A DNA stretch of 64,000 nt from Salisaeta longa DSM 21114 (GTDB lineage: Bacteria > Bacteroidota > Rhodothermia > Rhodothermales > Salinibacteraceae). Position 1 is the first letter of the stretch. Every line of letters begins with the position of its first letter. Position numbers and translations under genes: made by a program. The notes beneath the pieces were generated by a model that ran no database searches, was not told the origin of the DNA, and saw nothing but the letters and a program-made list of their open reading frames with translations. The stretch is taken from contig NZ_ATTH01000001.1 in assembly GCF_000419585.1 (NCBI RefSeq), positions 1,200,005-1,264,004 on the forward strand, given 5' to 3'. This document shows positions 18,001-64,000 of this stretch, in pieces.

Positions 18001-21000
18001 ATTACGGCCAGCGAATCGTAGCGGAAGCCGCGCGCGCCGCGCTCTACGGTCAAGGTGAGGTTGCGCGCCTTCCCGGGGCCCACCTCAAAGGGCAACCCGC
18101 TGCCGCCGCTGATGGCCGCGCCGTTGGCCTTCACGATGGCCCCCTTCGGATTCGATTCGTTCAGGAGGCGCACCGCGTAGGAGCGCGTTTCATCGGACGG
18201 GCTGTCGTTGACGAGCGTCAGCCCAAACGTGGCCGCCTCGTCTGGCGCCACGCTCACTTGCCGGCTGATGCCGTTGCTTACGTTCAGCTCCACCTTGTCG
18301 CGGCGGGTGGTCAGCACGTCGCCCTCAAACGCCGACCATGCGGCCCGATCGGCTGCGAAGGACGAGAACGTATCGAACGGCTCGCGGGCCGGCTCAAACG
18401 GACACGAGCTGGTGCCCGAGCGCGTCTGAAAGACGGGCGTTCCGTAGCGCGGGTCTTTCTTGATGTCCACGGTGTACGAATCCCCCGCGTCGTCGTCGCT
18501 CAGCACGTAGCCCCACGTGCGCTGTTGCTGGTTGCTCTGCTCGCTGCCGGACGCATCCGACGGCGTAATCACCGTCTCGGTGGCCAAAGTCGCTACAGCT
18601 GGTTTCAGCACCCCCACTTCGGCAAAGATGCGCGTAGCCACCGAGGTGAACACCGACGAGTAGGTGGCGCTGCGCTGCGTGCGCGTTTCTTCGTACTGAA
18701 AGCTGTTGCCGCTGCTAAAGCTTCTGTTTTCGATAAGCTCGGCCTCGCTGGCCAGCCGATCGCTCTCGTACAGGATATTTTCCCACAGCGCAATCACATC
18801 GTCGTAATCGAGGCGACCCTCACGATCGTCGGTCTTCAGGTCTTGCAGCTCGGGGATGAGCGTCTCCTCAATGTGTTGGCGGGTGTAGGCATAGGTCGTT
18901 GAAATAGAGTCGGGCTGGAAGGAGACAGTCTGCGACTTTCTGATTTCGCATGCGGCCTTGTCTTCGCCCAGCACCTTGAGCACATCGGAGGTGGCAAATA
19001 CGAAGTTGATGCCCGCCCCCATGAACACATCGGCCGACCGGCCCGTGGCGCCCGGCGCGGCAGACGTTTGCAGGCGCTCGGTGGTCGTCTGACACACTGA
19101 GAAGCGTTCGCCGTTGGTGCTGCTCTGCGACACCGTCACGCCTACACCGCCCACGGCAAGGACCTCGACGTCGGCATAAAAGCCCCACCAGCCCACCTGC
19201 ACCTCGGTGTTTACGCCCGCCGTTACAGCAGTAGCGTTTGAAAGTGCTAGGCCCGACTCCGTCCAGGTGCTGCTGCATACCTCGGTGCCTTCCGAGAGGT
19301 AGCTGTACGACCCATCGCCCGGCGGGTCGCGCAGCACAGCCACCGGCAGCTCTACAGCCCGCGTGATGAACTGCGTGCCTTCGCGCGCCCGCAGGCCCTC
19401 CACAATGGCCCACCGGGTGGTGGCATCGCGGCGGGTGGACACTTCAGCGGTTACCGACAGCGACTTCTGGTACGAGCGGTCGATCCCGTTCACCACGCGC
19501 CCGGCAATCAGGTTGGGCGAGCGTCCGAAGGTGTGGTACGAAATGGCACCGGTGGAATCGGTGGTGGCCGTGACGGGGTCGTCGCCGCGGTCGGCCAGCT
19601 CGTCGTAAACCGTCACCGATGCGTCTTCTACGGGGCACAAGTTGCCGTTGCCGTAGTCTTCGGCCACCTGGATGCGCAGGTTCAGCTCCTGATTGCGCTT
19701 CACCACCGGCACGCTCACGTTGCTGCAACTAGCCGCCTCGGGCCACTCCTTAACGGCCACCTGAATGGGCGCCCGGTAGATGAGCTCCACCGTGGTGTCG
19801 GCCGGCGCAAGGTCGACGTTGATGGCGCCACGCTGGGCAAAGAACTTCTCGATGGCCACCTTCTGGCTGGGGTCGGGCACGTCGCGCACGCCCGTCACCT
19901 GCACCGTGTACTCCTGCGGCGGCAGCTCGGCCGTGAACACGCCTTGCGCATTGGTCTCTACGGTGCGCGTGTAACAGCCGTTGGTGGAGCGAATCTTGAG
20001 CTCCGCGATGCCTACCGAAAAACCGCAGCCGCCGTGCACGTCCACCGTCAAGCGGCGGGTGGTGGTGTCTTCAAAGTTGACGTCGGTGCGGGCGCCCGTC
20101 ACGTCGAGCGTTTGCTGCTCGGGCGTGAAGGTGTGCGTTCCGCTGGCGTTATCATCCAGCACGGGCCGCAGCGTGTGCGTGCCCGGAATGACGCCCACAG
20201 TAAATGCGCCCTGCGTGTCGGTGGATGCTTCCTGCTCGCCGTCCACAAGCATGTTCACGCCCGTCGCCGGACACTGCGTACCGGCGTACTGGATGGTGCC
20301 TGATACCGGCAGGCTGGTTTGGTCAGTGAAGCGGACCTGGTTTTGGACCGGCGTCTGCGGGCTGAGGGTGACGCTGGTGCGCGTGGGCTGAAAGACGTGC
20401 GGGGGTTTCTGCGGAATGACGGCGAACGTGATGCCGTCGCCATACCGCAAGTCGCTGATGCTGTAGGTGCCGTCGGCCCCGGTGCGGACGCACGCGTTGA
20501 GCGGCGCGCCCTGCTCGGCTGGTCCGGCGCCGTTTTGGTACACGGCATAGAACGCGCCGTCGTCGCTGGCCACATTGGCCCCGGCCGTACCGCCGCGCTC
20601 GTCGAGCGGCCAATACGCCATTAGATCGTCCTCGGTGCCGTCTAGCGGCTCAAACCGGTGGGCCTCTACCTGCGCCGCCGTACGATTTGTATGCCACAGC
20701 CGCACGTCGTCAATCTGCCCGGCAAAAAAGTCGCTTGCCTGACGCTCTCCGCCGGCTTCATCGTACTCTTGGCCCAGCGAGAATAGGTCGTTGGCGTCCG
20801 GCCGCACTGATGACGAAATCATAAACGATGCCTGCAGGGTGCCATTGACGATCAGCTGTCCGGTGCCGTCGGCCGCAACGGAAAGCGCTACGTGGTGCCA
20901 GGCGTTCGGCGCAAACGTGTCAGCGCTGGCCTGCGTTTGATTGTCGGTGTCGTAATGCTCAAAGCGTTGCGTGTCGTGGTTGTACCGGAGGGTGAACTTG

Positions 21001-24000
21001 TTTCCGCCCTCGTTTGTGTTCAGGCCCCACACCGCATCTTTGGCGGATCCACCCAAAGCAGGCTTCACCCAGGCAGACAGCGTAAAGGCCGGAGGCAGGT
21101 TGCCGGCAAGATCCTGGATGGCCACATACCCGCCGGCCCCGTCCAGCACGAGCGCCCCGTTAGGACTGGGCGAGAGGCATATGTTAACGCCGGCAAAGGC
21201 GCTGCCGTCTTGTAGTTGGGTACGCCCCGAAATGGCCCCGTCGGGGGCGCGCCAGCCGCGGTTGCAAATGCGATCCGTCTCGAAGCCCACTTCCGTCTCG
21301 TAGGCCGTTACGCAGTACGCGTAGGTATTGCCCGGGGCGGCATCGGTATCGCGGTAACTCGTTTCGTTCGGCCCGGTGGTCGCGATGAGCGTGCCGTCGC
21401 GGTAGATGCGGTAGCCGTCTTCATCGGCCGAGGCGTCGCTCCACGACAGGCTCACGCGGTTGCGGTAGGCCCCGTCGGAGGCCACCACGCCCTCGGGCGG
21501 GGCGGCGAGGCTCGACACGTACACGGCCCCCGTCTCGGAATTGGCATCGGGCGCGCCGATGATCACATCGCCCGCCCCAAAGGTTACCGTCCGCCCAAAG
21601 CCGTCGCCTGCGGGGTCGCCCTCGGCCTGAAAGATGATGGACCGCCCGTAGATGCCGCGGGCGTCGAGTTGAAAGAGATGGGCCCGGCCGCCCGCGGCCT
21701 GCCCCGGGGCGCCCACAAGCAACAACCCGCTAGGCTCGGCGTGGAGATCCGTGCCAAATTGTGCGTTGTTAGTGCCGTCCCCTGCCGGCTGTAGCGTCTG
21801 CACGAGTTCACTTTGGCGGTTAAAGATGTACACCCGCCCGTCGCCGCCGCTCGCGTTGGGCGCACCGACAATGACGTGACGTTCCGTGAGGGCTACGCTG
21901 CCCCCAAACGATTCATCGAAGCCCTGTGCATTACCAGAGACCGAAAACTGTTGAGGCCACGTTCCATCCGGCGCGCGCTCGTGATAATATACAAAATTGC
22001 GGTCGGTGTCGCCAATCAGCACGCGGGTCCCCAGAATGGCAACGGCCGTTTCCTCCCATGGGGTACCGGTGTCTTCGGTCTGAAAAAGCGTCCCATTAAA
22101 TAGGTCTACAGTGTCTCCACTTTTCAAATTACGAATCACAATCGTTCCGTTGAAGCCGCCATACGCCAGAATGGCCAAGCTATCGTCAACGGCTATATCC
22201 ATCTCGTCTCCAACGCCGTTGTCGTAATCGTCGTCTACGATGAGGTCGGGGTTGCCCCACCCATCGTCGGTCGGCGTGAACTGCACGATCTCGTTCACTT
22301 TTGATTCGCCCACGACGATCGCACCATTACCAATGCCAAGATCCAGGCCAAAGCGTCCGTACGAATTGGGACTCACGGCGCCTAGCTCGCCCATCTCTTC
22401 CCAGGTGCCGCCCGTACGTTTGTAGATGTGCGCGGTGCCGGTCAAGTCTTCACGCTGCCCCCGATGGCCAATGCCCAGATACTCATCGGTGGCATCCAAG
22501 TCGTTGCCAAAATACTCGTTGAAGTCGGTGTCGCCGCCTTGAATTTGATTGGCGAGCGCAACGGTTTGGGCTTGCGTAATGCCGCTGCCACTTCCTAGGC
22601 GTTCCCCTTCATCACACATGCGCTCGGAGGCCTCGCCGCTGGCGCTCAGCGTCTCAACACAATAGGATGCTACGGCGCCCGCTGCAAGACTGGCATCGGT
22701 GTACGTGGTTTGGTTGGCGGCCAGGGTGGTAAGCGCCTCGCCATCGCGCAGCACGCGGTATGCATCCTCCCGGGTGGATTGGTCGACCCAGGTGATGGTC
22801 ACCCGATCGGTGTAGCTCGTGGAGGCCGTGACCGAGCCCGGCGGCAGAATCATGGTGGCGCCTTCGTCGCTATCCGCGGTGGAGGTGCCGTCGTCATCGA
22901 AGGCAACCACCTGATACGTGTACGTAACGCCCAGCAGGCCGGTGGTGTCGGAAAAGGCCGTGACGTTGTCGGGCACCTGGCCCGCGACGGCCTCCGTCCC
23001 GTCGGCCGCGATGCGCGTGATGCGATAGCCGTCCTCCGCCGCCGACTGATCTGTCCACGTAACCACCACCTCGGTCTCGGAGGTGCCGTCGCTGGCCTCG
23101 ACGGCCGTGGGCGGCTGCAGCGTCCGCATCCCGGCATCGGCGCCCGCGCTGGTTGCGAGCGTGTCGCCGGCAAAGGCGATGGCCGTCACGACGCTGTAGC
23201 GGTACCGCTGGCCGGGCACGCCGGTGGTGTCGATGAGCACCTGCTCGTTGCGCAGCGTGGTATGCACGAGCGTCGAGTCGGGCGTTGTGGGCTGCCCCTC
23301 GGCCGTGATGGGCCGCCGGTAGATGCCGTAGCCCGCCTCCACGCGCGAGTTGTCGGCCCACTCCACCCGCACGCGGTCTTCGCGCTCGTTGTCGGTGGCC
23401 GTTACGCCGGTGGGCTTGTTCACCTCGCGGCTGCCAAACGTACACGTCCGCGCCGATTCGTTGCCCTGTTCGGTAAAGGCCGACACGCAATATTCGTGGC
23501 GCGCGTTGGGCGGAGCGTTCTCATCGACGTACGTGCGGGTTTGCTTCGAGGGCGTCGCAATGGCCTGAAGGGTCGACGCCCCGGCGTTGCGGCGATAAAT
23601 GCGATAGAAGGAGGAGCGCGTGGCAGGATCGTTCCACGTGATGCGGACCCGGTCTTCGGCCACGGAGTCGGTGGCTGCCACGTTGGTGGGTGCCAGCACC
23701 ACGCTCCGGCGGCCGGTGTCGCAGGCGTCTACGGTGCGGCCGACCGGATCGGTGCCCGTCAGCTGGGTGCGAGCATTGCCGTTGGTGGCCGCTACGGCAC
23801 AGTACGTGTACACCTGTCCGGGTACGGCGGCGCGGTCGGTGTAGGCAGCGGCGTCGGAGGCAAGGGTAGCGACGCGCGTCATGGCGGCGGTGTCGGGCGT
23901 GGCGGTGGGGAGGCCCGGTTGCCGGTAGATCAGATAGCGGGCCTCGGCGGTGGCGGCGTCGGTCCACTGCAGGGCCACCCGGTCGTCGTAGGTCGCGTCG

Positions 24001-25571
24001 GTGGCCTGCACCGCGGTGGGCGCTGCCAGGGTGCCGGCGCTGCCCGAAGCACAGAGGGGCCGCGAGGTGATCGTCCCCTCCACGCGCTGCACGCAGTAGG
24101 TAGCCGTTGCGCCGGGCACGCTCGCTCGGTCTACAAATTGCTGCTGGGACGGATCGTTGAGCGTGGCTATGGACGTGTCGTTGCGCGTAATCACGTAGCC
24201 CGACGTGCCCGGCCCCGGATCCTGCCACGTCACCACGACGCGGTCGCTGTACGTGCCCGTAGTGGCTTCCACCGAAGCGACCGGCACCACCTCGGCCAGC
24301 CGACCGGCATCGCAGACGCGCTGTCCTTCGCCATCGTCATCGTACGGTGCCACGCAGTAGCGATGGTCGCGCAGGGGCGCCAACGCGCTGCTTGTATCGG
24401 CGTACTGCTGCACGTTGGCCTCGAGCACGGCCACCTGCTGCCCGTCGCGGTACACCCGGTAGCCCGCTTCCACTTGCGACGCATCGCGCCACGTCAGCGC
24501 AATCTGATCGGTGAACATCTCGTCGGAGGCGCGCACGTTTGCTGCCGGTCGAAACGAGCGTGTGCCGTCGTCGCAAGCGTAGGTATAGGTTTGGCCGTCA
24601 ATGGTGACGTCCAGGCAATACGCGTAGGCTACGTCCGAGGCGCCCGTGTCGTCGACGTACGTGCTATCGCCGGTGGAGCGGTACGCCAATACGGTGCCGT
24701 TTCGGGTAACACGCAACAGCGCGGCTGCAGGGACAATCGTTGCCGGATCGGGCCACCGCAGCTCCACCCGGTCTTCGTACAGCGCGTCGCTGGCCACCAC
24801 GGGCTGAAGGGCCTGCGGCGTTGGCGCGGGCTGCACGCGGGCGTCGCCCTGCACGGTGCCGTCCAGTCCGCTGGGGCCTCGGTCGGCCAGCACGGTCGCT
24901 CCACTGGCGGTGGGCAGCGTGTTGGCCGGATAGTAAGCAAGCAGGTTTGCTTCGTCACCCTCCAGCGGGTGCCACAGGCTGTGCCGGATGCGATCGCGCG
25001 AGCGGGCGGCCGACCAAAAGCGGATGTCGTCAAGCTGGGCGGCGAGCGTAGCGGTGGGCGGTGCTGCCGCGGCGCCAAGGCGCACCGGGGCCGTGTTTTG
25101 CGCCAGCGGCCCCATAGCTGTGGCCGTGCCATCACGCCTGCCATCCACATACAACGTCTTGTCGCCCGTCGCGGCGTTGTACACCACGGCGATGTGATGC
25201 CACTGCCCGTCGTCTACCGGCGTGCGGCCTTCTAAGCGCGACGTTGAGCCGCCGTGCGTGCTCACAAATACGAGCGTGCCTTCGGCTCCGGACTGCCGGA
25301 TCGCCCAACTTCCACTTCCTTTGGCCACAATGGGCACGTTGGGCGTGGCAAAACCGTCGGCTTTCAGCCAAAACGCAACGGTAAAGCTACCCGTGAAGTC
25401 AAACGCAGCAGACTGAGACAGCACGACCTGATCGTCGGTGCCGTCCAGTACAAGCGCCTGCGCTCCCGACTGTGCGGCCGCCGAAAGCGCGGTACCGCCC
25501 CACACGGCAAGCGCCACCAAAAAACCTGCAACAAAACGACGAAATAGCATGCGACTCGTAGATGCAATCAT
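15066..25571 (-). CDS. Giant secreted multidomain protein (LamG, FnIII, FG-GAP, Ig-like) with T9SS tail
   Basis: 3501 residues with a signal peptide (FVAGFLVALAVWGGTALSAAAQ). Domains in order, approximate residues: LamG/concanavalin-like (37-214); eight FnIII-like repeats starting with variants of ASDxxYxDRVxxxW (254-990); FG-GAP-type repeats (1003-1357); a ninth FnIII-like repeat (1360-1447); a second LamG (1470-1640); carboxypeptidase-regulatory/SpaA-like beta domains (about 1690-1890); a long unassigned region with a helical stretch (1900-2720); a Big_5-type Ig domain (about 2735-2860); one FnIII (about 2975-3057); a GWNIIANPLDKDV module; and a T9SS type A tail (about 3413-3501, VYDLLGRRVATL). 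Seven of nine FnIII-like repeats have a matched cysteine pair. It is likely an adhesin or surface-matrix protein. ATG 25571 is preferred; ATG 25550 and a TTG at 25592 are alternatives. Confidence 0.9.
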   Translation of the reverse strand: MIASTSRMLFRRFVAGFLVALAVWGGTALSAAAQSGAQALVLDGTDDQVVLSQSAAFDFTGSFTVAFWLKADGFATPNVPIVAKGSGSWAIRQSGAEGTLVFVSTHGGSTSRLEGRTPVDDGQWHHIAVVYNAATGDKTLYVDGRRDGTATAMGPLAQNTAPVRLGAAAAPPTATLAAQLDDIRFWSAARSRDRIRHSLWHPLEGDEANLLAYYPANTLPTASGATVLADRGPSGLDGTVQGDARVQPAPTPQALQPVVASDALYEDRVELRWPDPATIVPAAALLRVTRNGTVLAYRSTGDSTYVDDTGASDVAYAYCLDVTIDGQTYTYACDDGTRSFRPAANVRASDEMFTDQIALTWRDASQVEAGYRVYRDGQQVAVLEANVQQYADTSSALAPLRDHRYCVAPYDDDGEGQRVCDAGRLAEVVPVASVEATTGTYSDRVVVTWQDPGPGTSGYVITRNDTSIATLNDPSQQQFVDRASVPGATATYCVQRVEGTITSRPLCASGSAGTLAAPTAVQATDATYDDRVALQWTDAATAEARYLIYRQPGLPTATPDTAAMTRVATLASDAAAYTDRAAVPGQVYTYCAVAATNGNARTQLTGTDPVGRTVDACDTGRRSVVLAPTNVAATDSVAEDRVRITWNDPATRSSFYRIYRRNAGASTLQAIATPSKQTRTYVDENAPPNARHEYCVSAFTEQGNESARTCTFGSREVNKPTGVTATDNEREDRVRVEWADNSRVEAGYGIYRRPITAEGQPTTPDSTLVHTTLRNEQVLIDTTGVPGQRYRYSVVTAIAFAGDTLATSAGADAGMRTLQPPTAVEASDGTSETEVVVTWTDQSAAEDGYRITRIAADGTEAVAGQVPDNVTAFSDTTGLLGVTYTYQVVAFDDDGTSTADSDEGATMILPPGSVTASTSYTDRVTITWVDQSTREDAYRVLRDGEALTTLAANQTTYTDASLAAGAVASYCVETLSASGEASERMCDEGERLGSGSGITQAQTVALANQIQGGDTDFNEYFGNDLDATDEYLGIGHRGQREDLTGTAHIYKRTGGTWEEMGELGAVSPNSYGRFGLDLGIGNGAIVVGESKVNEIVQFTPTDDGWGNPDLIVDDDYDNGVGDEMDIAVDDSLAILAYGGFNGTIVIRNLKSGDTVDLFNGTLFQTEDTGTPWEETAVAILGTRVLIGDTDRNFVYYHERAPDGTWPQQFSVSGNAQGFDESFGGSVALTERHVIVGAPNASGGDGRVYIFNRQSELVQTLQPAGDGTNNAQFGTDLHAEPSGLLLVGAPGQAAGGRAHLFQLDARGIYGRSIIFQAEGDPAGDGFGRTVTFGAGDVIIGAPDANSETGAVYVSSLAAPPEGVVASDGAYRNRVSLSWSDASADEDGYRIYRDGTLIATTGPNETSYRDTDAAPGNTYAYCVTAYETEVGFETDRICNRGWRAPDGAISGRTQLQDGSAFAGVNICLSPSPNGALVLDGAGGYVAIQDLAGNLPPAFTLSAWVKPALGGSAKDAVWGLNTNEGGNKFTLRYNHDTQRFEHYDTDNQTQASADTFAPNAWHHVALSVAADGTGQLIVNGTLQASFMISSSVRPDANDLFSLGQEYDEAGGERQASDFFAGQIDDVRLWHTNRTAAQVEAHRFEPLDGTEDDLMAYWPLDERGGTAGANVASDDGAFYAVYQNGAGPAEQGAPLNACVRTGADGTYSISDLRYGDGITFAVIPQKPPHVFQPTRTSVTLSPQTPVQNQVRFTDQTSLPVSGTIQYAGTQCPATGVNMLVDGEQEASTDTQGAFTVGVIPGTHTLRPVLDDNASGTHTFTPEQQTLDVTGARTDVNFEDTTTRRLTVDVHGGCGFSVGIAELKIRSTNGCYTRTVETNAQGVFTAELPPQEYTVQVTGVRDVPDPSQKVAIEKFFAQRGAINVDLAPADTTVELIYRAPIQVAVKEWPEAASCSNVSVPVVKRNQELNLRIQVAEDYGNGNLCPVEDASVTVYDELADRGDDPVTATTDSTGAISYHTFGRSPNLIAGRVVNGIDRSYQKSLSVTAEVSTRRDATTRWAIVEGLRAREGTQFITRAVELPVAVLRDPPGDGSYSYLSEGTEVCSSTWTESGLALSNATAVTAGVNTEVQVGWWGFYADVEVLAVGGVGVTVSQSSTNGERFSVCQTTTERLQTSAAPGATGRSADVFMGAGINFVFATSDVLKVLGEDKAACEIRKSQTVSFQPDSISTTYAYTRQHIEETLIPELQDLKTDDREGRLDYDDVIALWENILYESDRLASEAELIENRSFSSGNSFQYEETRTQRSATYSSVFTSVATRIFAEVGVLKPAVATLATETVITPSDASGSEQSNQQQRTWGYVLSDDDAGDSYTVDIKKDPRYGTPVFQTRSGTSSCPFEPAREPFDTFSSFAADRAAWSAFEGDVLTTRRDKVELNVSNGISRQVSVAPDEAATFGLTLVNDSPSDETRSYAVRLLNESNPKGAIVKANGAAISGGSGLPFEVGPGKARNLTLTVERGARGFRYDSLAVMAYPPCDLAAGGEVPSTDTVYVSVTFQPPSSPIALESPAPGFAINRATKDAPFDVSFSGFSVDTTDTGHRLSEVGVFIRPAIDLNGGFPPLQTTANGDSSAADSLRGPRYLKGEAARALFRRIENGAAAKATQGVEALEDWSQTLLVATRQNILQLNDCANEACDLSDITTYFERTQYRGPDGVYEIAAYTKTTNAEGTVTGAYVAEPRRIIVDTKRPRVHGTPEPADGLLTAGDDIAVTFDETVACATVRANENVTLAYADSTVGGRIPITPTCDGRVLYLQPRDPEALAQAEDQRLVATVTAALTEDGGVQRDSAGPLSLTDRAGNPLPASVDWRFTVQQRGLTWTPAADTLRLVRGTTGQVSTRLTNFRTQLVDYGLTASGDALTIEGPTAAPDPLAPGASRTVTINVAADRRPGTYIDTVRVTGVGARAALYRLTTIIERPEPAVRTPQQVWAQSTPQQHVDLRWTPGDKGAARYQVYRGSNARFDTTGARVATVRGQRSQYVDSTAQVGATHYYRLVARAATGEMSAPSEAASIFLYPRTVAAHTQRSFAGGDDPQDFRLVALPGAVQQRLTEALNGTPGDDWTAYADRGTSEDPFVEIDAASDRAFTPGRGYWLRQREAWTVDKTVQTVDLRGDTVAVIDVHDGWNIIANPLDKDVAWAAVEQANAANLQALWRFAGRYTRAQTFASATTGEAFYFLNDRGLDSLVVPYPGAPFVQQTSSEKSTSKASAARTLTLATFYDGTHTGQATIQLAPDARVGRDALDQVAPPARFEGPRLRLPVADPPSPRQRWLAHEARPAGTDGQRVNLTLHAPAGSHVRIDARTVNALDVPAVRLVERATGRMIDLTQRQSFTLQVEHAQTPLVLLMGTTAFVEEAWSSIVPPTVRLRANYPNPFRTQTTIEYAVPKAGPVRLDVYDLLGRRVATLVNATQKAGWHRVRWNATAGRQRLASGVYFGRLRVGGEVRTHKMVIVR

Positions 25572-25595
25572 GATTACGTCTTTTGTCTTCAAGAT

Positions 25596-25674: not shown

Positions 25675-26046
25675 TTAAGCTACCAGCACCCGTTCGGAAG
25701 AGCACGCGGCGGCATGCTCGGTGGGCGCGCGGTCGTGGTAGTCGCGAAATTGCGTGCTGAAGCTTTGCACGCTGCTGTATCCGACGGCAAAGGCGATTTG
25801 CGTAACCGACTGCTCGGTGCGCAACAACGCCCGTGCGGCCTGCATGCGGCGGGCGCGGATGAGCGCACAGGGCGACACGTCGTAGTAGGCCTGCACGCGA
25901 CGATACAGTGTGCTCCGACTCATGGCGAGATGATGCGCAAGCTCTTGCACGCCAAAGGTGGGCACATCGAGGTGATGCTGAATGGCGTGTTCAAGGCGCT
26001 GGCGAAAAAGGGAGGGATGCTGACGGGCGGGACGCGACGTCGTCAT
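25675..26046 (-). CDS. Orphan AraC-family DNA-binding protein
   Basis: 123 residues, essentially just the double helix-turn-helix of the AraC family. First HTH: FGVQELAHHLAMSRSTLYRR. Second: QIAFAVGYSSVQSFSTQFRDY. There is no sensor domain. The family normally binds two direct-repeat half sites, and a pair of 18-bp repeats with a 21-bp period lies about 92 bases upstream. Its recognition helices (SRSTLYRR; YSSVQSFSTQF) are closer to those of HTCS 2 than to HTCS 1. It sits 103 bases before the giant gene on the same strand, so it probably controls it and perhaps itself. Start uncertain: ATG 26046 is chosen because the extra 16 residues from ATG 26094 look unlike the family. Confidence 0.85.
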   Translation of the reverse strand: MTTSRPARQHPSLFRQRLEHAIQHHLDVPTFGVQELAHHLAMSRSTLYRRVQAYYDVSPCALIRARRMQAARALLRTEQSVTQIAFAVGYSSVQSFSTQFRDYHDRAPTEHAAACSSERVLVA

Positions 26047-26109
26047 GACGAAGGGTGTGGGAAACGTGAGCAAGCAAACGATCCATGACGCCATTGGATG
26101 ACGTCGCTG

Positions 26110-26117: not shown

Positions 26118-26137
26118 GCGTGCGCTCGTTTGTCTTG

Positions 26138-26176
26138 CGTTGCGTGAGCGTCCCAATCTTTTGCGTGAGCGTGTCA
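26138..26176 (-). promoter_or_regulatory. Paired direct repeats, 21-bp period (candidate AraC operator)
   Basis: On the minus strand TGACACGCTCACGCAAAA (26176 to 26159) and TGGGACGCTCACGCAACG (26155 to 26138) share a 12-base identical core, ACGCTCACGCAA. Their starts are exactly 21 bp apart, the spacing of the araI1/araI2 half sites of AraC. The upstream copy fits TGACAC-N6-GCAAA, also found in the repeats at 58819-58858. Confidence 0.6.
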
Positions 26177-54454: not shown

Positions 54455-57400
54455 ATGAGTTGTAAAGCGACATGCTGGACGCACCAAGCGGCAGCATTTT
54501 GCTGCGTACTGGGGGCCGTTTTGCTTTCGGGGGCGGGGTTGGCAGCCGCGGCCCAACCGGCCCCCGCCCGCGGCCCGCTCCAGCCCATCGTGCGCACGAT
54601 TGCCCCGGCGGCGTATGGCGGCAACGGCGCGGTATGGGACATGGCGCAGGACCGCCGCGGTCTGCTGTATGCGGCGACAAGCTATGGGGTGCGCCAGTAC
54701 GACGGCGCGCGCTGGCGCGACCTACCGACCGGCAATCAGACCACGCCCTGGGATCTGGCCCTTGGCCCGGATGGCGCGCTGTACGCTGGCGCCCGCAACA
54801 CGCTTGGGGCCTACCGCCTCAATGCAAAAGGCAAGCGCACCTACCAACCCCTCATCGCGCACGTCCCCGATGCGCAGCGGCCGGTGGGCAACGTGCGCGA
54901 CGTGGTTGCTACATCCCGCGGCGCGTGGTTCCGCACGGCCCGTGGGGTGCTGCACTGGGATGGCCAGCAGATGAAGGTGGTGGGCGACTCAACGACGCAG
55001 CGCCTCTTTCGCTGCCGCGATACGGCCTATCTGCAAACCGCGGCGGGACGGCTCCGCCCCGCCGCACGCGCCCCCTCTGCCGCCTCGGTGGCCACGGCCC
55101 AGTTGCCAAGCCCGGTGGCTGCCGCAGGTCCTGCCGGTGCTGATGGCTGCTGGATCGTAACCGAAGCGGGTACGTGGCACACCCTCACGCGCAGCGCCCT
55201 CGCGCACCGCACACCGCCCCACGCGGCCGGCGCATCGTCCATTCAGGATGTGGTGCAGGCGCCCGGCGGCGTTTGGGCCGTTGCGACGGACGAGGTTCTG
55301 TACCTGCACGGGCCCGGCGGCCGGCAGCACCGCCTTCGTGCCTTCGGTCCAAAGGGCCGCGCACGCATCGAAGCGCTGCACATGAGCGCGCGCGGCGCGC
55401 TGTGGGTGGCCACCACCAACGGACTCGCACGCGTGGCATGGCCCAGCCCGCTCACCAAAGCCGCCGGCCTGCCGCATCCCGAGGCGCAACCCCGCGACGT
55501 GGTGCAGACGGCGACGGGCCTCCGGGTGGGCACAACCGAAGGCGTATGGAACGGATGGTCGGCGCAGGCGAAGCGGTTGACGCCTGCCGGTGTCACGTAT
55601 CACCTGCTGCCTACCGCCCACGGTGTACTTGCGGCACAGTCCAACGGCCTCTTTGTCATTGAAGGCTCCGCAACGCGGCGCGTGATGGGTGCAAGCGTGT
55701 ATTCGCTCGCGGCCGCCCCCCATCGCTCCACCGTTGCCTATGCCGGCGCCCGCGACGGGACGGTGCTGCGCCTGCGCCACCGCCAAGGACGCTGGCAGCT
55801 CGCCGACACCCTCGGCACGGTACCGGCGGTTCCGTTTACGCTTTCCCCCGATGCCCGCGGCCACGTGTGGGTGGGCACCGGACATCGCGGCGTTCACCGC
55901 TTCCGTATGCGCCCGAGCGGCGCCACCTACCACGCAGCCTTCGACACGACCAACGGCCTCCCCGCCACCACGTTCAACTACACGACCACCATCGGCGACT
56001 CGGTGCGATTCATCACGCGCGACGGGCTGTACCGCTACACCGGTACCCGCTTCGTACCCGACCGGCGCTTCGCGGCCGTGTACCGCGACAGCGTACGCCA
56101 GGGCTGGCCCGTCGCCGCCGGTCCGCAGCAGCAGGTGTGGATGGACTTTGGCGGGCACAAGCTGGGCGTCGCCCGCGGATGGCCCAATGCCGTAACGTGG
56201 CATGCGCGCGCCTTCCGGCGGATGGCAGACCTCGGCGATGTGCACCGCATCAGCCCCACCTCGGCACATACCGTGTGGTTTGCCACGGCCAACACCCTCA
56301 TGCACTACGACCGCCGCCTTCGCGCTTATGGCGATCACGCCGCCCCCTTTCGCACGCTGTTGCGCGGCGTCGTGCTGCCTGGCGACTCGTTGGTGTGGGC
56401 GGGCGACGCGCCAGCCCCCGCTCGCCGCTTGGTACTGCCGTTTAACCAGCGGCTACGCTTCCTCTTTGGCGCCACGAGCTACGAGCAAATCACCGGCGTC
56501 CTCTTCAACCGATCGGCCGCCCGCCAGTACCGGTGGAAGCTCTCCGGCATAAACGACACGTGGACGCCCTGGACCGCCGAGCCCCGGGCCGACTTCACCA
56601 GCCTCCCGCCCGGCACGTTCACCCTGCAGGTGCAAGCCCGCAACCTGTACAACGTAATTGGGCACACGGCACGCCTCACGTTCACCATTTCGCCGCCCTG
56701 GTACCGCACGTGGAGCGCCTACGCCGGCTACGCCCTGCTGGCGATGCTGCTGATGAGCGGACTCGTCATGTGGCGCACCCGGCACCTGGAGCAGCGCCAG
56801 CGCGTGTTGGAGGCTACCATCCGCGAGCGCACGGCAGAAGTGCGCGCGCAGCGCGATGCCCTGTCCACCCAAAAGGCACAACTGGAACGGCAAACCAGCC
56901 AACTGGCCGAGCAGGCCGACGCGCTACGTGCCCTCGATGAGGCAAAGTCGCGCTTCTTTGCAAACCTCAGCCACGAGTTCCGCACGCCACTCACCCTCAT
57001 CTTGGGGCCGGTGGAACGGGTGCGTGCGCACCTGCTGGAGCAGGCGCCCGCGCTATCACCGGCCGATGCCGCCGAGCAGCTCGCCATGGCCGAACGCAAC
57101 GCCCACCGGCTGCTCCACATGGTGCAGCAGCTTCTGGATCTTGCCCGTCACGACGCTGGCACGCTGCAGCTGCGTGCCCAGCCTACCGACGTAAATGCCA
57201 CCGTAGCGGACATCACGCAGGCGTTTGCGCCGCTCGCCGAACGCCAACAGCTAACGCTCACGGTTGATGCCACACAGCCCCCAACGGATGCGCCCCCTGT
57301 GTACCTCGATCCGGCTTTGTTCGACCAGCTCTTGGGCAATCTGCTGTCGAACGCCATCAAGTTTACCCCACCCGGCGGCCGCATTGTCGTGCACGTCGGC

Positions 57401-58636
57401 CACACCACCGAGGCGGTAACGCTTCGCGTGCAAGACACCGGCATCGGCATTCCAGCAGACAAGCAAGCCCACATCTTCGACCGTTTTACGCAGGCCGACG
57501 ATGCAGCTACCCGCCCCCAGGAAGGCGCGGGCATCGGGCTGGCCCTCACCCAAACATTGGTGCAGCTGCACGGCGGCACCATTGCTGTAGACAGCACACC
57601 CCACGTGGGCAGCACCTTCACCGTCGTTCTGCCACGGGGCGATGCCCACCTTTCCGAAGAACAAGTTGCTGCACCTGCAGAGGCGTCGCCCGACGCGCCC
57701 ACGCTGTCGGCTCCCGGCCCCAAGGCCACTGCAGAGGACAAAGCACCCGCGGAGAGCCCCGCGCCCACGTCTTCTTCTACCGCATCCACGACGCAGCATC
57801 CGGCAGACACGCCCCTCGTGCTGGTCGTCGACGATAACGCCGATCTGCGGGCCTACGTTCGCTCTGTCTTGCAACCATCCTTTCGCATCGAAGAAGCCAC
57901 CTCGGGCACCGAAGGGCTCGCTGCCGCTCGCGAGCACCTTCCCGACGTCATTCTGGCCGATGTGATGATGCCCGCGATGGATGGGTTGGCCATGACCAAA
58001 CGCTTGCGCGACGCCCCCGCCACGGCCGCCCTCCCCATCATCATGCTCACCGCACGGGCCGAAGTGGCCGACGAGGTAGAGGGCCTTGCCGCCGGTGCCA
58101 CCGACTATATCGTAAAGCCATTCGACCCGAAGGTACTGGAGATGCGCGTACGCGGCGCACTCGCCTACCAGGAGCGGCTGCGCCGTCAATTGCTACAGGA
58201 CCTTCAAGACTCGCCGCACAACCGCACAAGCGCACCTGCGCCCCCCGCAACGGATGATGCAAGCACGACGTCAAACGGCCCCCGCCCTGCACAAGACAAC
58301 GAACCGGCATCGTTTGAGGCCCAGATGCGTGCCATAATCGCCCAGCGCCTGCCCGATCCCGCCTTCGGTACGAACGCGCTGGCCGATGCACTGGGCGTTA
58401 GTCGCTCTACGCTCTACCGCCGTGCCCGTAACGCCGAGGCTCCCTCCCCTGCTGAGCTCATCCGTACGATGCGCCTGGAACGCGGGGCTGCACTTCTGCA
58501 AGACGGCGCTGGAAGCGTCTCGGAAGTAGCCTACGCCGTGGGCTTCAGTAGCCTCTCGCATTTCTCCCGGCAGTTTACCGATCACTTCAACCAGGCCCCC
58601 ACCGACTACGCCGCCCCTTCAGTGGAAGAGGGATGA
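54455..58636 (+). CDS. Hybrid two-component sensor/regulator (HTCS) 2
   Basis: 1393 residues. The signal peptide (AFCCVLGAVLLSGAGLAAAAQ) leads to a periplasmic propeller with Reg_prop-like repeats (about 45-660), a Y_Y_Y domain (about 670-745) and a span (YALLAMLLMSGLVMW, about 755-770). A coiled coil with EKAQLE-type heptads and a histidine kinase follow (acceptor in LSHEFRTPLTLILG near 837; NLLSNAIKF, DTGIGIP, GAGIGLA), then a receiver (about 1115-1238, VVDDNADLR, phospho-Asp in DVMMPAMDG) and an AraC-type domain (about 1285-1385). The recognition helices SRSTLYRR and FSSLSHFSRQF match those of the orphan AraC at 25.7 kb. Its likely target is the giant gene 421 bases downstream, which has paired direct repeats in front. 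Confidence 0.92.
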   Translation: MSCKATCWTHQAAAFCCVLGAVLLSGAGLAAAAQPAPARGPLQPIVRTIAPAAYGGNGAVWDMAQDRRGLLYAATSYGVRQYDGARWRDLPTGNQTTPWDLALGPDGALYAGARNTLGAYRLNAKGKRTYQPLIAHVPDAQRPVGNVRDVVATSRGAWFRTARGVLHWDGQQMKVVGDSTTQRLFRCRDTAYLQTAAGRLRPAARAPSAASVATAQLPSPVAAAGPAGADGCWIVTEAGTWHTLTRSALAHRTPPHAAGASSIQDVVQAPGGVWAVATDEVLYLHGPGGRQHRLRAFGPKGRARIEALHMSARGALWVATTNGLARVAWPSPLTKAAGLPHPEAQPRDVVQTATGLRVGTTEGVWNGWSAQAKRLTPAGVTYHLLPTAHGVLAAQSNGLFVIEGSATRRVMGASVYSLAAAPHRSTVAYAGARDGTVLRLRHRQGRWQLADTLGTVPAVPFTLSPDARGHVWVGTGHRGVHRFRMRPSGATYHAAFDTTNGLPATTFNYTTTIGDSVRFITRDGLYRYTGTRFVPDRRFAAVYRDSVRQGWPVAAGPQQQVWMDFGGHKLGVARGWPNAVTWHARAFRRMADLGDVHRISPTSAHTVWFATANTLMHYDRRLRAYGDHAAPFRTLLRGVVLPGDSLVWAGDAPAPARRLVLPFNQRLRFLFGATSYEQITGVLFNRSAARQYRWKLSGINDTWTPWTAEPRADFTSLPPGTFTLQVQARNLYNVIGHTARLTFTISPPWYRTWSAYAGYALLAMLLMSGLVMWRTRHLEQRQRVLEATIRERTAEVRAQRDALSTQKAQLERQTSQLAEQADALRALDEAKSRFFANLSHEFRTPLTLILGPVERVRAHLLEQAPALSPADAAEQLAMAERNAHRLLHMVQQLLDLARHDAGTLQLRAQPTDVNATVADITQAFAPLAERQQLTLTVDATQPPTDAPPVYLDPALFDQLLGNLLSNAIKFTPPGGRIVVHVGHTTEAVTLRVQDTGIGIPADKQAHIFDRFTQADDAATRPQEGAGIGLALTQTLVQLHGGTIAVDSTPHVGSTFTVVLPRGDAHLSEEQVAAPAEASPDAPTLSAPGPKATAEDKAPAESPAPTSSSTASTTQHPADTPLVLVVDDNADLRAYVRSVLQPSFRIEEATSGTEGLAAAREHLPDVILADVMMPAMDGLAMTKRLRDAPATAALPIIMLTARAEVADEVEGLAAGATDYIVKPFDPKVLEMRVRGALAYQERLRRQLLQDLQDSPHNRTSAPAPPATDDASTTSNGPRPAQDNEPASFEAQMRAIIAQRLPDPAFGTNALADALGVSRSTLYRRARNAEAPSPAELIRTMRLERGAALLQDGAGSVSEVAYAVGFSSLSHFSRQFTDHFNQAPTDYAAPSVEEG

Positions 58637-58818: not shown

Positions 58819-58858
58819 TGACACAAATATGCAAACATCTGACACAAATATGCAAACA
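58819..58858 (+). promoter_or_regulatory. Paired 19-bp direct repeats, 21-bp period (candidate HTCS 2 operator)
   Basis: TGACACAAATATGCAAACA occurs at 58819-58837 and again, identical, at 58840-58858, with two bases between. The 21-bp period equals two helical turns and matches AraC half-site spacing. It lies 200 bases before the giant gene and 182 bases after HTCS 2. Confidence 0.7.
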
Positions 58859-59021
58859 GCTCACGCAGCGCTCTTATAGGTTGTGCGCCGTATACGAGCA
58901 TTGCGAACCGGGACTGCCACGCGTGCCTAGATGTACCCATATCGCAGGCCGTACAATCCGGCAACATAACCGGGTACCCTTCGCTCTGCTCGCTTGCACC
59001 CAACGGCACATTTCTCATCAG

Positions 59022-59029
59022 TACTTTTG
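59022..59029 (+). promoter_or_regulatory. TACTTTTG -7 box for the giant beta-helix gene
   Basis: Exact TAnnTTTG match 28 bases before the ATG. No clear -33 TTTG at standard distance, which would fit a promoter that needs an activator such as HTCS 2. Confidence 0.45.
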
Positions 59030-59057
59030 GATGATGCGCATCCCTTCTTTAAACGAT

Positions 59058-62000
59058 ATGCTGAAACGGATTTTCGCTGCGCTGTTCGCGCTGCTCGTTG
59101 TGGGCCTCAGTGCCCCCGCCCACGCCCAGCAGGTCATCTACGTGGACGGCAGCGCAAGCGGCGCAGGCGACGGCTCGTCCTGGGCCGATGCCTACACCAA
59201 CCTGCAGACGGCCATCGACAACGCCGCGGCGGGCGACCAGATCTGGATCGCCGAAGGCATCTACAAACCCACCGGCGACCCGCTCAACCGCGACGCCTCC
59301 TTCACCATCCCCGCCTCCAAAGACGGCCTCAAGCTCTACGGCGGCTTTGAGGGCGAGGCCACCGAAACCCGCCTGGCCGACCGCGACCCCGACGCCCACG
59401 AGGTCGTCCTCTCCGGCGACATTGACGGCAGAGGCGACCGGGCCTTTGCCCCCACCGAAGACTCGGATGGCATCCCGGAAACGGCCACCGCCACCGATCA
59501 CATCAATTTTAGAGACATCGTTAACACGTCCACGACCCCAAACACGTTCATTGATGGAGCGAACAGCAAGAATGTGGTGCGGCTGGGCAGCGGCATTACG
59601 GCGGCCACGGTCATCGACGGGGTGACCATTACCGGCGGCTTTGCCACGGTACCGGACTATCGGGCAACCGATGCTGCCGCTCGGAATAGCAGGGGCGGAG
59701 GGCTGTTCTGCGACGGCTGCAGTGCCACGTTTCGCGGGGTTACCATTAAGGGCAATCATGCTCTTGCCGAGGGTGGTGGGGTTTCTGTAGATGGTGGGGG
59801 TAGCCCCACGTTCATCAACGCCGTGTTTTGGGGCAATAGCGCGGGCGGCTCTGCTCCCAGTGCCGACCCAAGTGATGGCGATTCTCCCACTTCGGGTTTA
59901 CATCGAGATGACATCGTTGGCGACGGTAACAGTGGCCTGTCCGTCAACAGCGGTTCGGCCACGCTCATTCACGTGACGTTTCTGCAGAACTCGATTAATC
60001 GCTTCGATTATGAGGAGCAAACCGGGGCGGGCGACGTGCTCTCCGGCAGCGGCGTAACCGTACAGAACGGCATCCTCACCTCCGGCTGCCCCAGCGGGGC
60101 CACCTGCCAGAACACCGTGAGCAGTAACCTGGACCTGAGCGGCCTGCGTCCCGGCCCGCAGAGCAGCGCCATCGGAGCGGGCGACCCGTCTTTTCTGCCG
60201 GCTGACAGCGAGGACCTCGACGACGACGGCAACACCACCGAACCGCTTCCGCTGGATGCCGGGGCCGATGCCCGCGTGCAGCGCAGCTTCCCGGATGCCG
60301 GGGCGTTCGAGACGGACCACCAGTTCTTCAGCGCGGCCACCGGTGCCGTAGCCCCCGGCGAAACGCTCGTCATCACCGGCCAGCGCCTCGACCAGGTCAC
60401 CGCCGTGGCCGTCAATGGGACGGACGCGCCCGACTTCACCAGCGTCAGCGCCCAGCGCCTGGAGGCCACCGTGCCGCAGGCCGCGACCACCGGCCCCGTC
60501 ACCCTCACCATCGACGGCACCGACGGCGACACTGACCAGCCCGTACCGGTGATCGACGCCTACGGCCCGGGCCGCGCCCTGGGCGGCTTCGCTACCGTGG
60601 AGCTGCCCGACGAGTCGGCCTTCGACTTTGCCTCCAGCTTTACCATTTCGGCGTGGATGAAAGGCGATGCTATTGTTCGAAAAGGCACTGAACCTTCGCT
60701 TTTCCGATTACGGGGGGGACTGTTTGAGGTGTATGGCGAAGTGGCATCTTGGAAGTTTGAAGATAATCCAGCCACCGATGGAGCGTGGCATCATATCACC
60801 GGGGTGTACGACGAGCAGGCTGGTGAGGTACGGGTCTACGTAGACGGCGAGCAGAGCGATGCTTCCGGAACCTTACCTGGGATTGGAGAGCCAGACCTCA
60901 ACGATGAGCCCGTCACGATCGAAACCAACCTGGTCGCAGGCATCCCGGGGAGCGTGGACAACGTGCGCTTCTACACCCGCGCGCTTTCCGACGGCGAAAT
61001 TCAGGACCTTACCCGCCGCCACCGCCGCCTCGACGTCACCGAATCGAAAGCCAACGGCCTGCTGGCCAGCTACCGCTTTGACGCGGCGGGCGGCACGGCC
61101 TACGACTACGCCGGGCGGCGAAGTGGCACGTACACGAGCGGTGGCCCCACGGCCTTCAGCACAGCCCCCATCGGCATTGAGCAGGGCACCACGGTGGGCC
61201 CGGCGGGCGCGCAGCTTGTCTCCAATGTCGCCGCGTACCGCTACGGACGCCTCGGCGGCCCGGCGCGCACCGACGGCGACCCCGGCGAGGCCTTCAGTAC
61301 GGAGATCCTGACCGAGCCCACCGAGCGGGCGAACCTCACGTGGGGCCTGATCGAAGACGCCGGATCGACCACCATCGACTACGGCAACGTGGGCGTCTCC
61401 GCGCCCGTGGGGCTGCTCTACCGCACCGGTCCCGGCGACGACTGGGAGGTGGCCGACGGCTGGACCCGCGACGCCGCCGCCAAAACCTTCACCGCCAGTA
61501 GCGCTCCGGCGGGCGAGTACGCCGTGGCCTCGTTCCCCACCGCCGATCTTGCGCTCACCCTCACCGCCGACCAGGAGGACGTGCCGGAGGGGCAGCCCGA
61601 TACGTTTACCGCCACGGTCACCAACAATGGCCCGGACGCAGTGCCTTCCGGCGTCACCGTTTCGTTTACCCCCACCGGGCTGGGCAGCCTCAGCGCCACC
61701 GGCGGCCCCTTTAGCGACGACACGTGGACGCTCGATGCCCTGAACAGCGGCGCCTCGGCCACACTCACGCTGGAGGGCACCGCCGCCACCGGAACAGACG
61801 TTCACTTTTTGCAGGGAGCAATCAACGCCTCCGACACCGATGCGACCAACAACAGCGCCGGGACCGCGCTCTCCTACGGCAGCGGGCGCAGCCTTACGCT
61901 CAACGGTTCAGCGGAGAGCGAGCACGTTTCCACCGGACGAACCAGCAGCGAGCTGGACCTCGACACCTCGCAGCCCGTCACCGTGGAAGCATGGATCCGG

Positions 62001-64000
62001 TGGGACGGGGCCGCCCACGAACCCGCCTCAAGTGATGGCGCTGTTCCAATTGTGGGTTTGAACAACTTCGACGAAGACGATGCAGTCACCGCTACTGAAT
62101 ATATCGGTCTCGATGATAGCGGTGCATTAAAAGCGGGTGCCTACGGGGCTACGGCAAACACGCAGTTGACACCCAATCAGTGGTATCACGTGGCCTTCGT
62201 CTACTCAGGCGGACAGTGGACCTACTACGTGAACGGGACGCCGGACGGAACGGCCTCGGACGGCCTGCCTAGTAACCGGGAGGTGTGGGTTGGCAAAAGC
62301 GCGGATTCGGACAACGGAGTCGCCGGGGTGATCAACAACACCCACTACTTCGGCGGGCAGATCGACCAGCTCCGCATCTGGTCGGCGGCGCTCACGCAAC
62401 GCGAGATCCGCGCCCGCATGCACCAGACCATCGGAGAAGGGGATCCGGGGCGCGAGGACCTCACGCTCAGCTACCGCTTCGACGGCAGCGGCTCTACCGT
62501 GACCTCAAACGCTGGCACGGCACAGGGCACGCTCCAGGGTGGTGCCGGGCGGCCTGCCTTCAGCAGCGCCCCCCTCGGCCAGCAGAGCGCCCTGGCCACG
62601 CCGTCCTCAGACGCAACCGTGGGCCCGTCCGGCAGCGCGCTTTCCGCGTCGGTCGTCTCCGGCGATCCGGTGCAGCTCTACCGCTACGGGGCCGAGGACG
62701 GTGCGGTGCGCGACGGCAGCGACGCGGGCGACGACTTCAGCGCCCTGCCCGACTTCATCTCCGAGCGCTCCGATCTGGTGTGGGGCGTCGATGCGCCAAA
62801 GGACGCAAGCCCCAGCGCCACCCTCACGCTCGACTACAGCCACGTGGGCACTGCCGGTCCACTCACCACGCCCGTGAACCTGCTGCACCGCGAGCGCCCG
62901 GGCGATCCGTGGGACATCGCCTCCGGCTGGACGAAAGACCCTGCCGCACAGACCTTCACCCACACCGGCCCCGCGCCCACCGGGCAGTACGCCCTGGCCG
63001 AATTTCCCAAAGCCGACCTGGCCGTGAGCCTCGCGCCCGCCTCGCAGGACGTGCGCATCGGCGATGACGCCGCGTTTACCGTCACCGTCACCAACACCGG
63101 CCCCGACGCCGCGCCCGCCGGGACGGCCGTTGCGCTCACCGCCATCACCGGCCTCGCCGACCCGTCCGCCGTTAGTGCCCCGTCCAGCGGCAGCTACGAC
63201 GCCGCGAACGGCACCTGGACGCTGGGCGCGCTGGCCTCGGGCGCGAGCGCCACGCTGGAGGTCACCAGTACATACAACGGCACTACCAACCTCGCCGTGC
63301 TTGGCGCTGCCCTCACGCCCCCGTCGGACGCCGTTGACCTCGAAGGGGACAACCACAACGCCAGTGCGCAAGTTGAGCTGGCCATCAAGCGTTTTCATGT
63401 GAGCGCCGCTGCCGGCAACGATGCCAACAGCGGCGAGAGCTGGGCACAGGCCTTTGCTACGCTCAGCAAGGCCCTGGATGTCGCGCAGACGCAGGATACG
63501 ATCTGGGTGGCCGAAGGCGTCTATTATCCTGACGAGGGACCGGGCGTTACCACAGGCGACCGCACCGCTGCCTTTACCATCACCGGTGCCCAGGACGGCC
63601 TGCACGTCTACGGCGGATTTTCGGGGAATGAGTCGAGCCTTGGCGCCCGCGACCCGAGTGCCCACCCCACGGTGCTCTCCGGCAACATCGGCGCCGCAGG
63701 CGACAGCACCGACAACAGCTACACGGTCCTGCATCTGGACGGCACGAGCGACCCGATCACCCGCGCCACGCGCCTCGATGGGCTCACCATTGCCCACGGC
63801 ACGGCCAACGGCTCCGAGGCGCAGGGCAACCTCACGCAGCAGGGTGCTGGGCTTTTCTGTAACGGAAACGGCGGCGACTGCAGCCCCGCGCTCTCCAACC
63901 TCCGTGTGACCGACAATGCCAGCACCTCCTGGGGCGCGGGAATCATGATTGACGGCACCAGCGGCGACGCCGACCCGCGCATTACCGGTACCGTCATTGC
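59058..64000 (+). CDS. Giant secreted beta-helix/LamG/DUF11-like protein (3' end outside window)
   Basis: 1647 codons in the window; the frame is still open at the edge. Signal peptide MLKRIFAALFALLVVGLSAPAHAQ. Then a right-handed beta-helix of the choice-of-anchor/pectate-lyase-like sort (about 25-410: VIYVDGSASGAGDGSSWADA, VTITGGFAT, GGGLFCDGCSATF), an IPT/TIG-like domain (about 420-500), LamG 1 (505-650), a beta domain ending in a DUF11-type repeat (690-930), LamG 2 (940-1120), again a beta domain with DUF11 (1160-1440), and a second beta-helix beginning VSAAAGNDANSGESWAQAF (about 1447). The block is an internal duplication. A T9SS tail is expected beyond the window but is not seen. Likely surface adhesin; probably controlled by HTCS 2. 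Confidence 0.88.
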   Translation, partial: MLKRIFAALFALLVVGLSAPAHAQQVIYVDGSASGAGDGSSWADAYTNLQTAIDNAAAGDQIWIAEGIYKPTGDPLNRDASFTIPASKDGLKLYGGFEGEATETRLADRDPDAHEVVLSGDIDGRGDRAFAPTEDSDGIPETATATDHINFRDIVNTSTTPNTFIDGANSKNVVRLGSGITAATVIDGVTITGGFATVPDYRATDAAARNSRGGGLFCDGCSATFRGVTIKGNHALAEGGGVSVDGGGSPTFINAVFWGNSAGGSAPSADPSDGDSPTSGLHRDDIVGDGNSGLSVNSGSATLIHVTFLQNSINRFDYEEQTGAGDVLSGSGVTVQNGILTSGCPSGATCQNTVSSNLDLSGLRPGPQSSAIGAGDPSFLPADSEDLDDDGNTTEPLPLDAGADARVQRSFPDAGAFETDHQFFSAATGAVAPGETLVITGQRLDQVTAVAVNGTDAPDFTSVSAQRLEATVPQAATTGPVTLTIDGTDGDTDQPVPVIDAYGPGRALGGFATVELPDESAFDFASSFTISAWMKGDAIVRKGTEPSLFRLRGGLFEVYGEVASWKFEDNPATDGAWHHITGVYDEQAGEVRVYVDGEQSDASGTLPGIGEPDLNDEPVTIETNLVAGIPGSVDNVRFYTRALSDGEIQDLTRRHRRLDVTESKANGLLASYRFDAAGGTAYDYAGRRSGTYTSGGPTAFSTAPIGIEQGTTVGPAGAQLVSNVAAYRYGRLGGPARTDGDPGEAFSTEILTEPTERANLTWGLIEDAGSTTIDYGNVGVSAPVGLLYRTGPGDDWEVADGWTRDAAAKTFTASSAPAGEYAVASFPTADLALTLTADQEDVPEGQPDTFTATVTNNGPDAVPSGVTVSFTPTGLGSLSATGGPFSDDTWTLDALNSGASATLTLEGTAATGTDVHFLQGAINASDTDATNNSAGTALSYGSGRSLTLNGSAESEHVSTGRTSSELDLDTSQPVTVEAWIRWDGAAHEPASSDGAVPIVGLNNFDEDDAVTATEYIGLDDSGALKAGAYGATANTQLTPNQWYHVAFVYSGGQWTYYVNGTPDGTASDGLPSNREVWVGKSADSDNGVAGVINNTHYFGGQIDQLRIWSAALTQREIRARMHQTIGEGDPGREDLTLSYRFDGSGSTVTSNAGTAQGTLQGGAGRPAFSSAPLGQQSALATPSSDATVGPSGSALSASVVSGDPVQLYRYGAEDGAVRDGSDAGDDFSALPDFISERSDLVWGVDAPKDASPSATLTLDYSHVGTAGPLTTPVNLLHRERPGDPWDIASGWTKDPAAQTFTHTGPAPTGQYALAEFPKADLAVSLAPASQDVRIGDDAAFTVTVTNTGPDAAPAGTAVALTAITGLADPSAVSAPSSGSYDAANGTWTLGALASGASATLEVTSTYNGTTNLAVLGAALTPPSDAVDLEGDNHNASAQVELAIKRFHVSAAAGNDANSGESWAQAFATLSKALDVAQTQDTIWVAEGVYYPDEGPGVTTGDRTAAFTITGAQDGLHVYGGFSGNESSLGARDPSAHPTVLSGNIGAAGDSTDNSYTVLHLDGTSDPITRATRLDGLTIAHGTANGSEAQGNLTQQGAGLFCNGNGGDCSPALSNLRVTDNASTSWGAGIMIDGTSGDADPRITGTVI

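Follow-up and report, generated by a model that had tools for sequence, protein, structure and literature searches.

A direct repeat between HTCS 2 and a giant surface-protein gene

The window, by which we mean the whole 64-kb stretch of DNA analysed here, carries on its plus strand the gene for HTCS 2 (54455–58636), a hybrid sensor kinase/response regulator with an AraC DNA-binding domain, which we propose as the binder of the element described below. Its Pfam domains are Reg_prop, Y_Y_Y, HisKA, HATPase_c, Response_reg and HTH_18, and it has both a HisKA box (SHEFRTP) and a REC box (DVMMP). Among the regulators of Bacteroidota the HTCS proteins form a major family, for which to our knowledge few operators are known. 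Further downstream, on the same strand, lies the proposed target, a giant T9SS-sorted surface-protein gene recognized by its domain matches (59031–64000, the N-terminal part being contained in the window). In the genome the protein comprises approximately 3117 aa, with LamG and DUF11 domains and, at the C-terminus, a sorting domain of T9SS type A.

Between these two genes, a placement that had been predicted originally and is borne out by the ORF and domain calls, the 19-bp sequence TGACACAAATATGCAAACA occurs as an exact direct repeat at 58819–58837 (distal half-site) and 58840–58858 (proximal half-site), both on the plus strand and with starts 21 bp apart. The repeat begins 182 bp 3’ of the HTCS 2 stop codon. 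Its distance to the start codon of the giant ORF amounts to roughly 170–200 bp, depending on the ATG considered (59031, 59034 or 59058). Each 19-bp half-site contains two short conserved words, TGACAC and GCAAAC, which are about one helical turn apart.

Scanning the window at periods of 18–60, we found the TGACACAAATATGCAAACA pair to be the sole exact tandem run of at least 14 nt; Markov resamples of the window yielded 0.08 runs of length 14 per window and none that were longer. No third match to TGACACAAATATGCAAACA with up to 3 mismatches was detected elsewhere in the 64-kb window, and none in 100 shuffles. The pair is far above chance expectation, and the identical 19-bp copies with a 21-bp period that had been predicted for 58819–58858 were recovered as an exact match with no chance equivalent. 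The listed start of the giant ORF, GTG 58818, is located inside the repeat and was rejected as the gene start, since at the second genomic copy described below the corresponding GTG and the gene are in different reading frames (L005, 10622 versus 10950). This frame difference at the second copy also shows that the repeat is non-coding.

Aligning the receiver domains, we noticed that HTCS 2 (window 57800–58633) and the seven other HTCS receivers of the same genome lack the S/CHIP His in the alpha3-beta4 loop. Bacteroides HTCSs use the His of this motif to hold the AraC domain inactive (PMC11253607). Given its absence, the off-state of the HTCSs investigated here may be under different control.

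Further repeat pairs in the same genome

A whole-genome search for the repeat revealed exactly one further pair, with half-sites at G000:C1:1268622 and 1268643. The first of these is identical to TGACACAAATATGCAAACA, the second, corresponding to the proximal half-site, differs by 2 mismatches, and the period is again 21 bp. This second pair is located 9.8 kb downstream of the first and has an equal linker. After a further 290 bp or so follows the ATG of a second giant T9SS-sorted gene, whose product is 75% identical to the first giant protein at the N-terminus. The flanking intergenic DNA of the two pairs is unalignable; only the repeat block of 40 bp and the downstream TA box are kept.

Searching with the tandem pattern TGACAC-N6-GCAA-N5-TGACAC-N6-GCAA additionally identified a sister operator within the window, TGACACGCTCACGCAAAAGAT TGGGACGCTCACGCAACGCAA, at 26135–26176 on the minus strand and with a 21-bp period. 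It is located upstream of an ORF for a stand-alone AraC HTH protein (25675–26094, minus strand) and also upstream of a 3508-aa giant T9SS gene (15066–25592, minus strand). The repeated word at this position, TGACACGCTCACGCAA, was found as well in two related genomes, G002 and G009. Taking the intergenic DNA in the neighborhood of AraC genes of this genome together, we counted 5 repeats at period 21 and at most 1 at any other period, while the control stretches (13 sampled stretches of 20 kb as genomic background) contained 2. A 21-bp repeat of another type (ATTG), possibly in three copies, is present at L019 12144–12210, in the divergent region between another HTCS of this genome and a 769-aa gene.

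A candidate promoter box at a fixed distance

Downstream of the repeat the sequence TAGGTTG (58877–58883, plus strand) represents a candidate −7 box of the form TAnnTTG. Counted from where the proximal half-site starts, the box lies at an offset of 37 bp. In both pairs of this genome a TAnnTTG box (TAGGTTG and TACGTTG, respectively) begins at precisely this offset from the start of the second half-site. When related sites were included, 13 of 14 had a TA at offset 37 or 38 from the proximal half-site (within positions 37–39), compared to an average of 1.28 of 14 in background windows; many of these sites are paralogs, so that they are not fully independent. The 13 sites with a TA box belong to two genera, i.e. 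the genus of this genome and that of G002 and G009. The single exception is the site of G011, which represents a third genus. A fixed distance to the TA box, as found in 13 of 14 sites, is what is expected of an AraC class II site, and the corresponding overlap with a promoter element presupposes the predicted transcription start.

The original prediction had singled out a different element, an exact TAnnTTTG box. This sequence, TACTTTTG, is indeed present at 59022–59029 (plus strand), but its relevance as a promoter element is doubtful: it abuts the ATG at 59031, and no exact counterpart was found at the equal place in the second giant gene of this genome or in the G009 ortholog. TACTTTTG at 59022 is probably not the promoter element of the operator, and judging from position and recurrence TAGGTTG at 58877 is more likely to be the promoter box.

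Conservation of the arrangement in relatives

The exact word TGACACAAATATGCAAACA was found in its own genome and is absent from 147 relatives of the same family, order and class. Conservation was therefore assessed via the genes and the period, in loci of relatives fetched with the HTCS 2 protein as query. On contig C104 of G009, a genome of the same family but another genus, an HTCS 2 ortholog precedes a direct repeat of period 21 bp, behind which lies an orthologous giant gene. The regulator shares 55% identity over the matched segment, with 65 of 96 residues identical in the DNA-binding domain, and the giant gene is 72% identical at the N-terminus. The G009 repeat, TGGCACATACCGTCAAACATT TGGCACGAATCGTCAAACATG, is accompanied by TACGTTG at offset 37. 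At best phase its half-sites agree with those of the window at 14 and 15 of 21 positions (shuffle P 0.005 and 0.0004). This likeness is modest, and some other sites reach 13 of 21. In G025, whose HTCS is 49% identical, a 21-bp repeat likewise stands between the HTCS and the giant gene, with a diverged half-site of the TGCAACAT type. For both genomes the frame of the half-sites was set by eye. The expectation that the repeat is retained where gene order is retained was thus confirmed for the architecture in G009 and G025, and largely for the sequence in the closer ortholog (G009).

We also analyzed the distribution of periods across larger gene sets. For the giant-protein family, gene starts were taken from protein searches (IYVD...GSSW after the signal peptide) and 450 bp upstream were scanned for direct repeats matching at 12 or more of 15 positions. 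Upstream of 10 of the 19 genes we found a repeat with a 21-bp period, compared to 0–2 genes for each of 29 other periods. Similarly, when 29 AraC-domain genes were scanned over 600 bp of 3’ flank, 7 flanks had a repeat at period 21, compared to 0–2 at the others. Both sets were scored once the 21-bp period was already suspected, with every other period scored identically. The complete pattern TGACAC-N6-GCAA-N5-TGACAC-N6-GCAA has matches in G002, G009 and G011, which in the majority of cases lie a short distance upstream of a gene of the giant-protein family. In the scan of upstream periods some pairs of HTCS and giant gene, e.g. L022, have no detectable 21-bp repeat, and near HTCSs of distant Bacteroidota no peak at period 21 was seen at the stringency used. 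At L075 12187–12240 (G022), an intergenic region near an HTCS contains three TTGCAACAT units in 21-bp steps, which suggests that arrays longer than two may occur.

Taken together, conservation upstream of orthologous or co-regulated genes is seen at the second site of the same genome, in G009, in the architecture of G025 and in the enrichment across the gene family.

Proposed mechanism and alternative explanations

The DNA itself displays a repeat that recurs, that keeps a fixed spacing to a TA box and whose layout is conserved in relatives. From this we infer HTCS 2 as the binder, activation as the outcome and phosphorylation as the control. The geometry of the half-sites and the constant TA distance, combined with the repeats and the binding published for HTCSs, lead us to read the element as an HTCS-responsive activator operator. 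We consider it probable that the two repeats serve the giant gene as an operator for an AraC-type activator, most likely HTCS 2. The architecture of a 21-bp AraC-type tandem operator that had been postulated for this site is strongly supported by its recurrence and by G009, whereas the notion of a single operator has to be given up in view of the second pair at a second giant gene.

An AraC domain has two helix-turn-helix motifs, for which the DNA words must be approximately one turn apart, and each half-site would accordingly hold one such domain via its two words. The 21-bp step would set two AraC domains on one face of the DNA, as judged from what is known of the AraC family. The proximal half-site is predicted to overlap the −33 region of a giant-gene promoter with TAGGTTG at 58877 as its −7 box. 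A proximal half-site over the −33 region is the geometry of a class II activator, as for AraC at araI. A periplasmic signal would switch on HTCS 2, whose phosphorylated receiver and AraC output would then occupy the operator as a dimer; RNA polymerase recruited in this way would transcribe the giant surface-protein gene. HTCS 2 might act likewise 9.8 kb further downstream, where the second giant gene has a nearly identical operator.

An operator of the same type could also be served by a different binder, namely HTCS 3, HTCS 1, the stand-alone AraC protein (25675–26094) or related HTCSs sharing sites. HTCS 3 (G000:C1:1276.2 kb) is the main rival to HTCS 2: it adjoins the second giant gene in convergent orientation, on the other side of the giant-gene pair. 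In addition, TGACAC-N6-GCAA half-sites occur beside HTCSs that are not orthologous to HTCS 2 (L076/L077), so that the sequence of the half-site does not identify the binder, and the Bacteroides paralogs BT4111 and BT4124 have been proposed to share sites (PMC3878776). For these reasons another binder, or sharing between paralogs, is unlikely while retaining appreciable weight. On the other side of the balance, HTCS 2 lies directly beside the site in the same orientation, and its G009 ortholog keeps both site and gene order, whereas L079 and L081, of the fetched loci the closest to HTCS 3, show no repeat of the TGACAC type within their 600-bp flanking regions. The tree built from AraC domains cannot decide between the regulators since it places HTCS 2 in no supported small group. 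Position, orientation and the ortholog in G009 make HTCS 2 the best candidate.

A site for a non-AraC factor or another role of the DNA, such as plasmid-type iterons, an integration site or the remnant of a mobile element, is highly improbable. Such sequences can look similar: at L090 1480–1537 (G025:C123) a replication-initiator-like ORF has beside it three TGACACCAAAAAGCTAACAGT units in tandem, which begin similarly, have a length of 21 bp and are probably plasmid iterons mimicking the operator pattern. The repeats investigated here, however, comprise just two copies, are mostly located upstream of one gene family and keep a fixed distance to the TA box. Plasmid iterons, which form several tandem copies beside a Rep gene, were rejected on the basis of copy number and because the neighboring genes examined (HTCS 2 and the giant gene) gave no match to a Rep family. 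A functionless recent tandem duplication carried along with the duplication of the giant gene would account for both pairs being upstream of paralogous genes in one cluster. It is nevertheless hardly conceivable, as the repeat block and the TA box are retained between flanks of the paralogs that are otherwise unalignable, and as the architecture recurs in other genera with different half-site words.

Returning to the activator operator, a wider picture can tentatively be drawn, which we regard as slightly short of an even chance: HTCS, 21-bp tandem operator and giant T9SS surface protein of Salinibacteraceae may constitute a module that duplicates and is distinct from classical polysaccharide-utilization loci. 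In each lineage the HTCS would diverge together with its half-site words, and the period and the promoter spacing would stay fixed. If this is true, switching of the surface coat would be an HTCS-controlled trait. With about a dozen sister sites for comparison, the operator of a halophile lineage is defined to the base, together with the likely promoter box and the family of target genes, which yields testable predictions as to which giant surface proteins switch together.

Comparison with known HTCS and AraC operators

At pBAD of E. coli the half-sites araI1 and araI2 of AraC form a direct repeat with 21-bp spacing on a single DNA face, and the proximal one adjoins the core promoter. The element described here resembles this arrangement in its two direct half-sites spaced by 21 bp and in the predicted position of the proximal one next to the core promoter. 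It differs in that AraC binds a sugar whereas HTCS 2 is a membrane-bound phosphorelay regulator, in that no distal looping site was found here, and in that the candidate promoter is of the Bacteroidetes −7 type.

The HTCS operators that we found in the literature come from polysaccharide loci of gut Bacteroides. The tandem architecture as such was already described there: for each of the 16 HTCS motifs reconstructed in Bacteroides a direct repeat is predicted, with an average distance of 21 bp, and HTCS dimers on one side of the DNA were proposed (Ravcheev 2013, PMC3878776). HTCS fragments that comprise receiver and AraC domain bind target promoters in vitro (PMC11253607). As in the predicted motifs of Bacteroides thetaiotaomicron (PMC3878776), the present element is a two-site direct repeat of about 21 bp upstream of genes near an HTCS; HTCS_Man of this organism, for example, has 16-bp sites with a 5-bp spacer (PMC3878776). 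The distance between site starts is exactly 21 bp here, and the neighboring HTCS gene encodes an AraC-type DNA-binding domain. In contrast to the Bacteroides thetaiotaomicron motifs, the half-site sequence is different and the two copies are identical. The targets differ as well, being polysaccharide-utilization operons (SusCD, hydrolase) in Bacteroides thetaiotaomicron and giant T9SS-sorted surface proteins in the Salinibacteraceae-like genome analyzed here. Polysaccharide-utilization targets are a trait of the known examples and not of the site itself, and the proteins encoded next to the repeats are of the giant LamG/DUF11/T9SS type. An earlier report of HTCS operators in Salinibacter-type bacteria was not found in the open-licence literature. 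While the general architecture is already known from Bacteroides, the lineage, the definition at the level of single bases, the fixed spacing to the promoter and the class of target genes are new.
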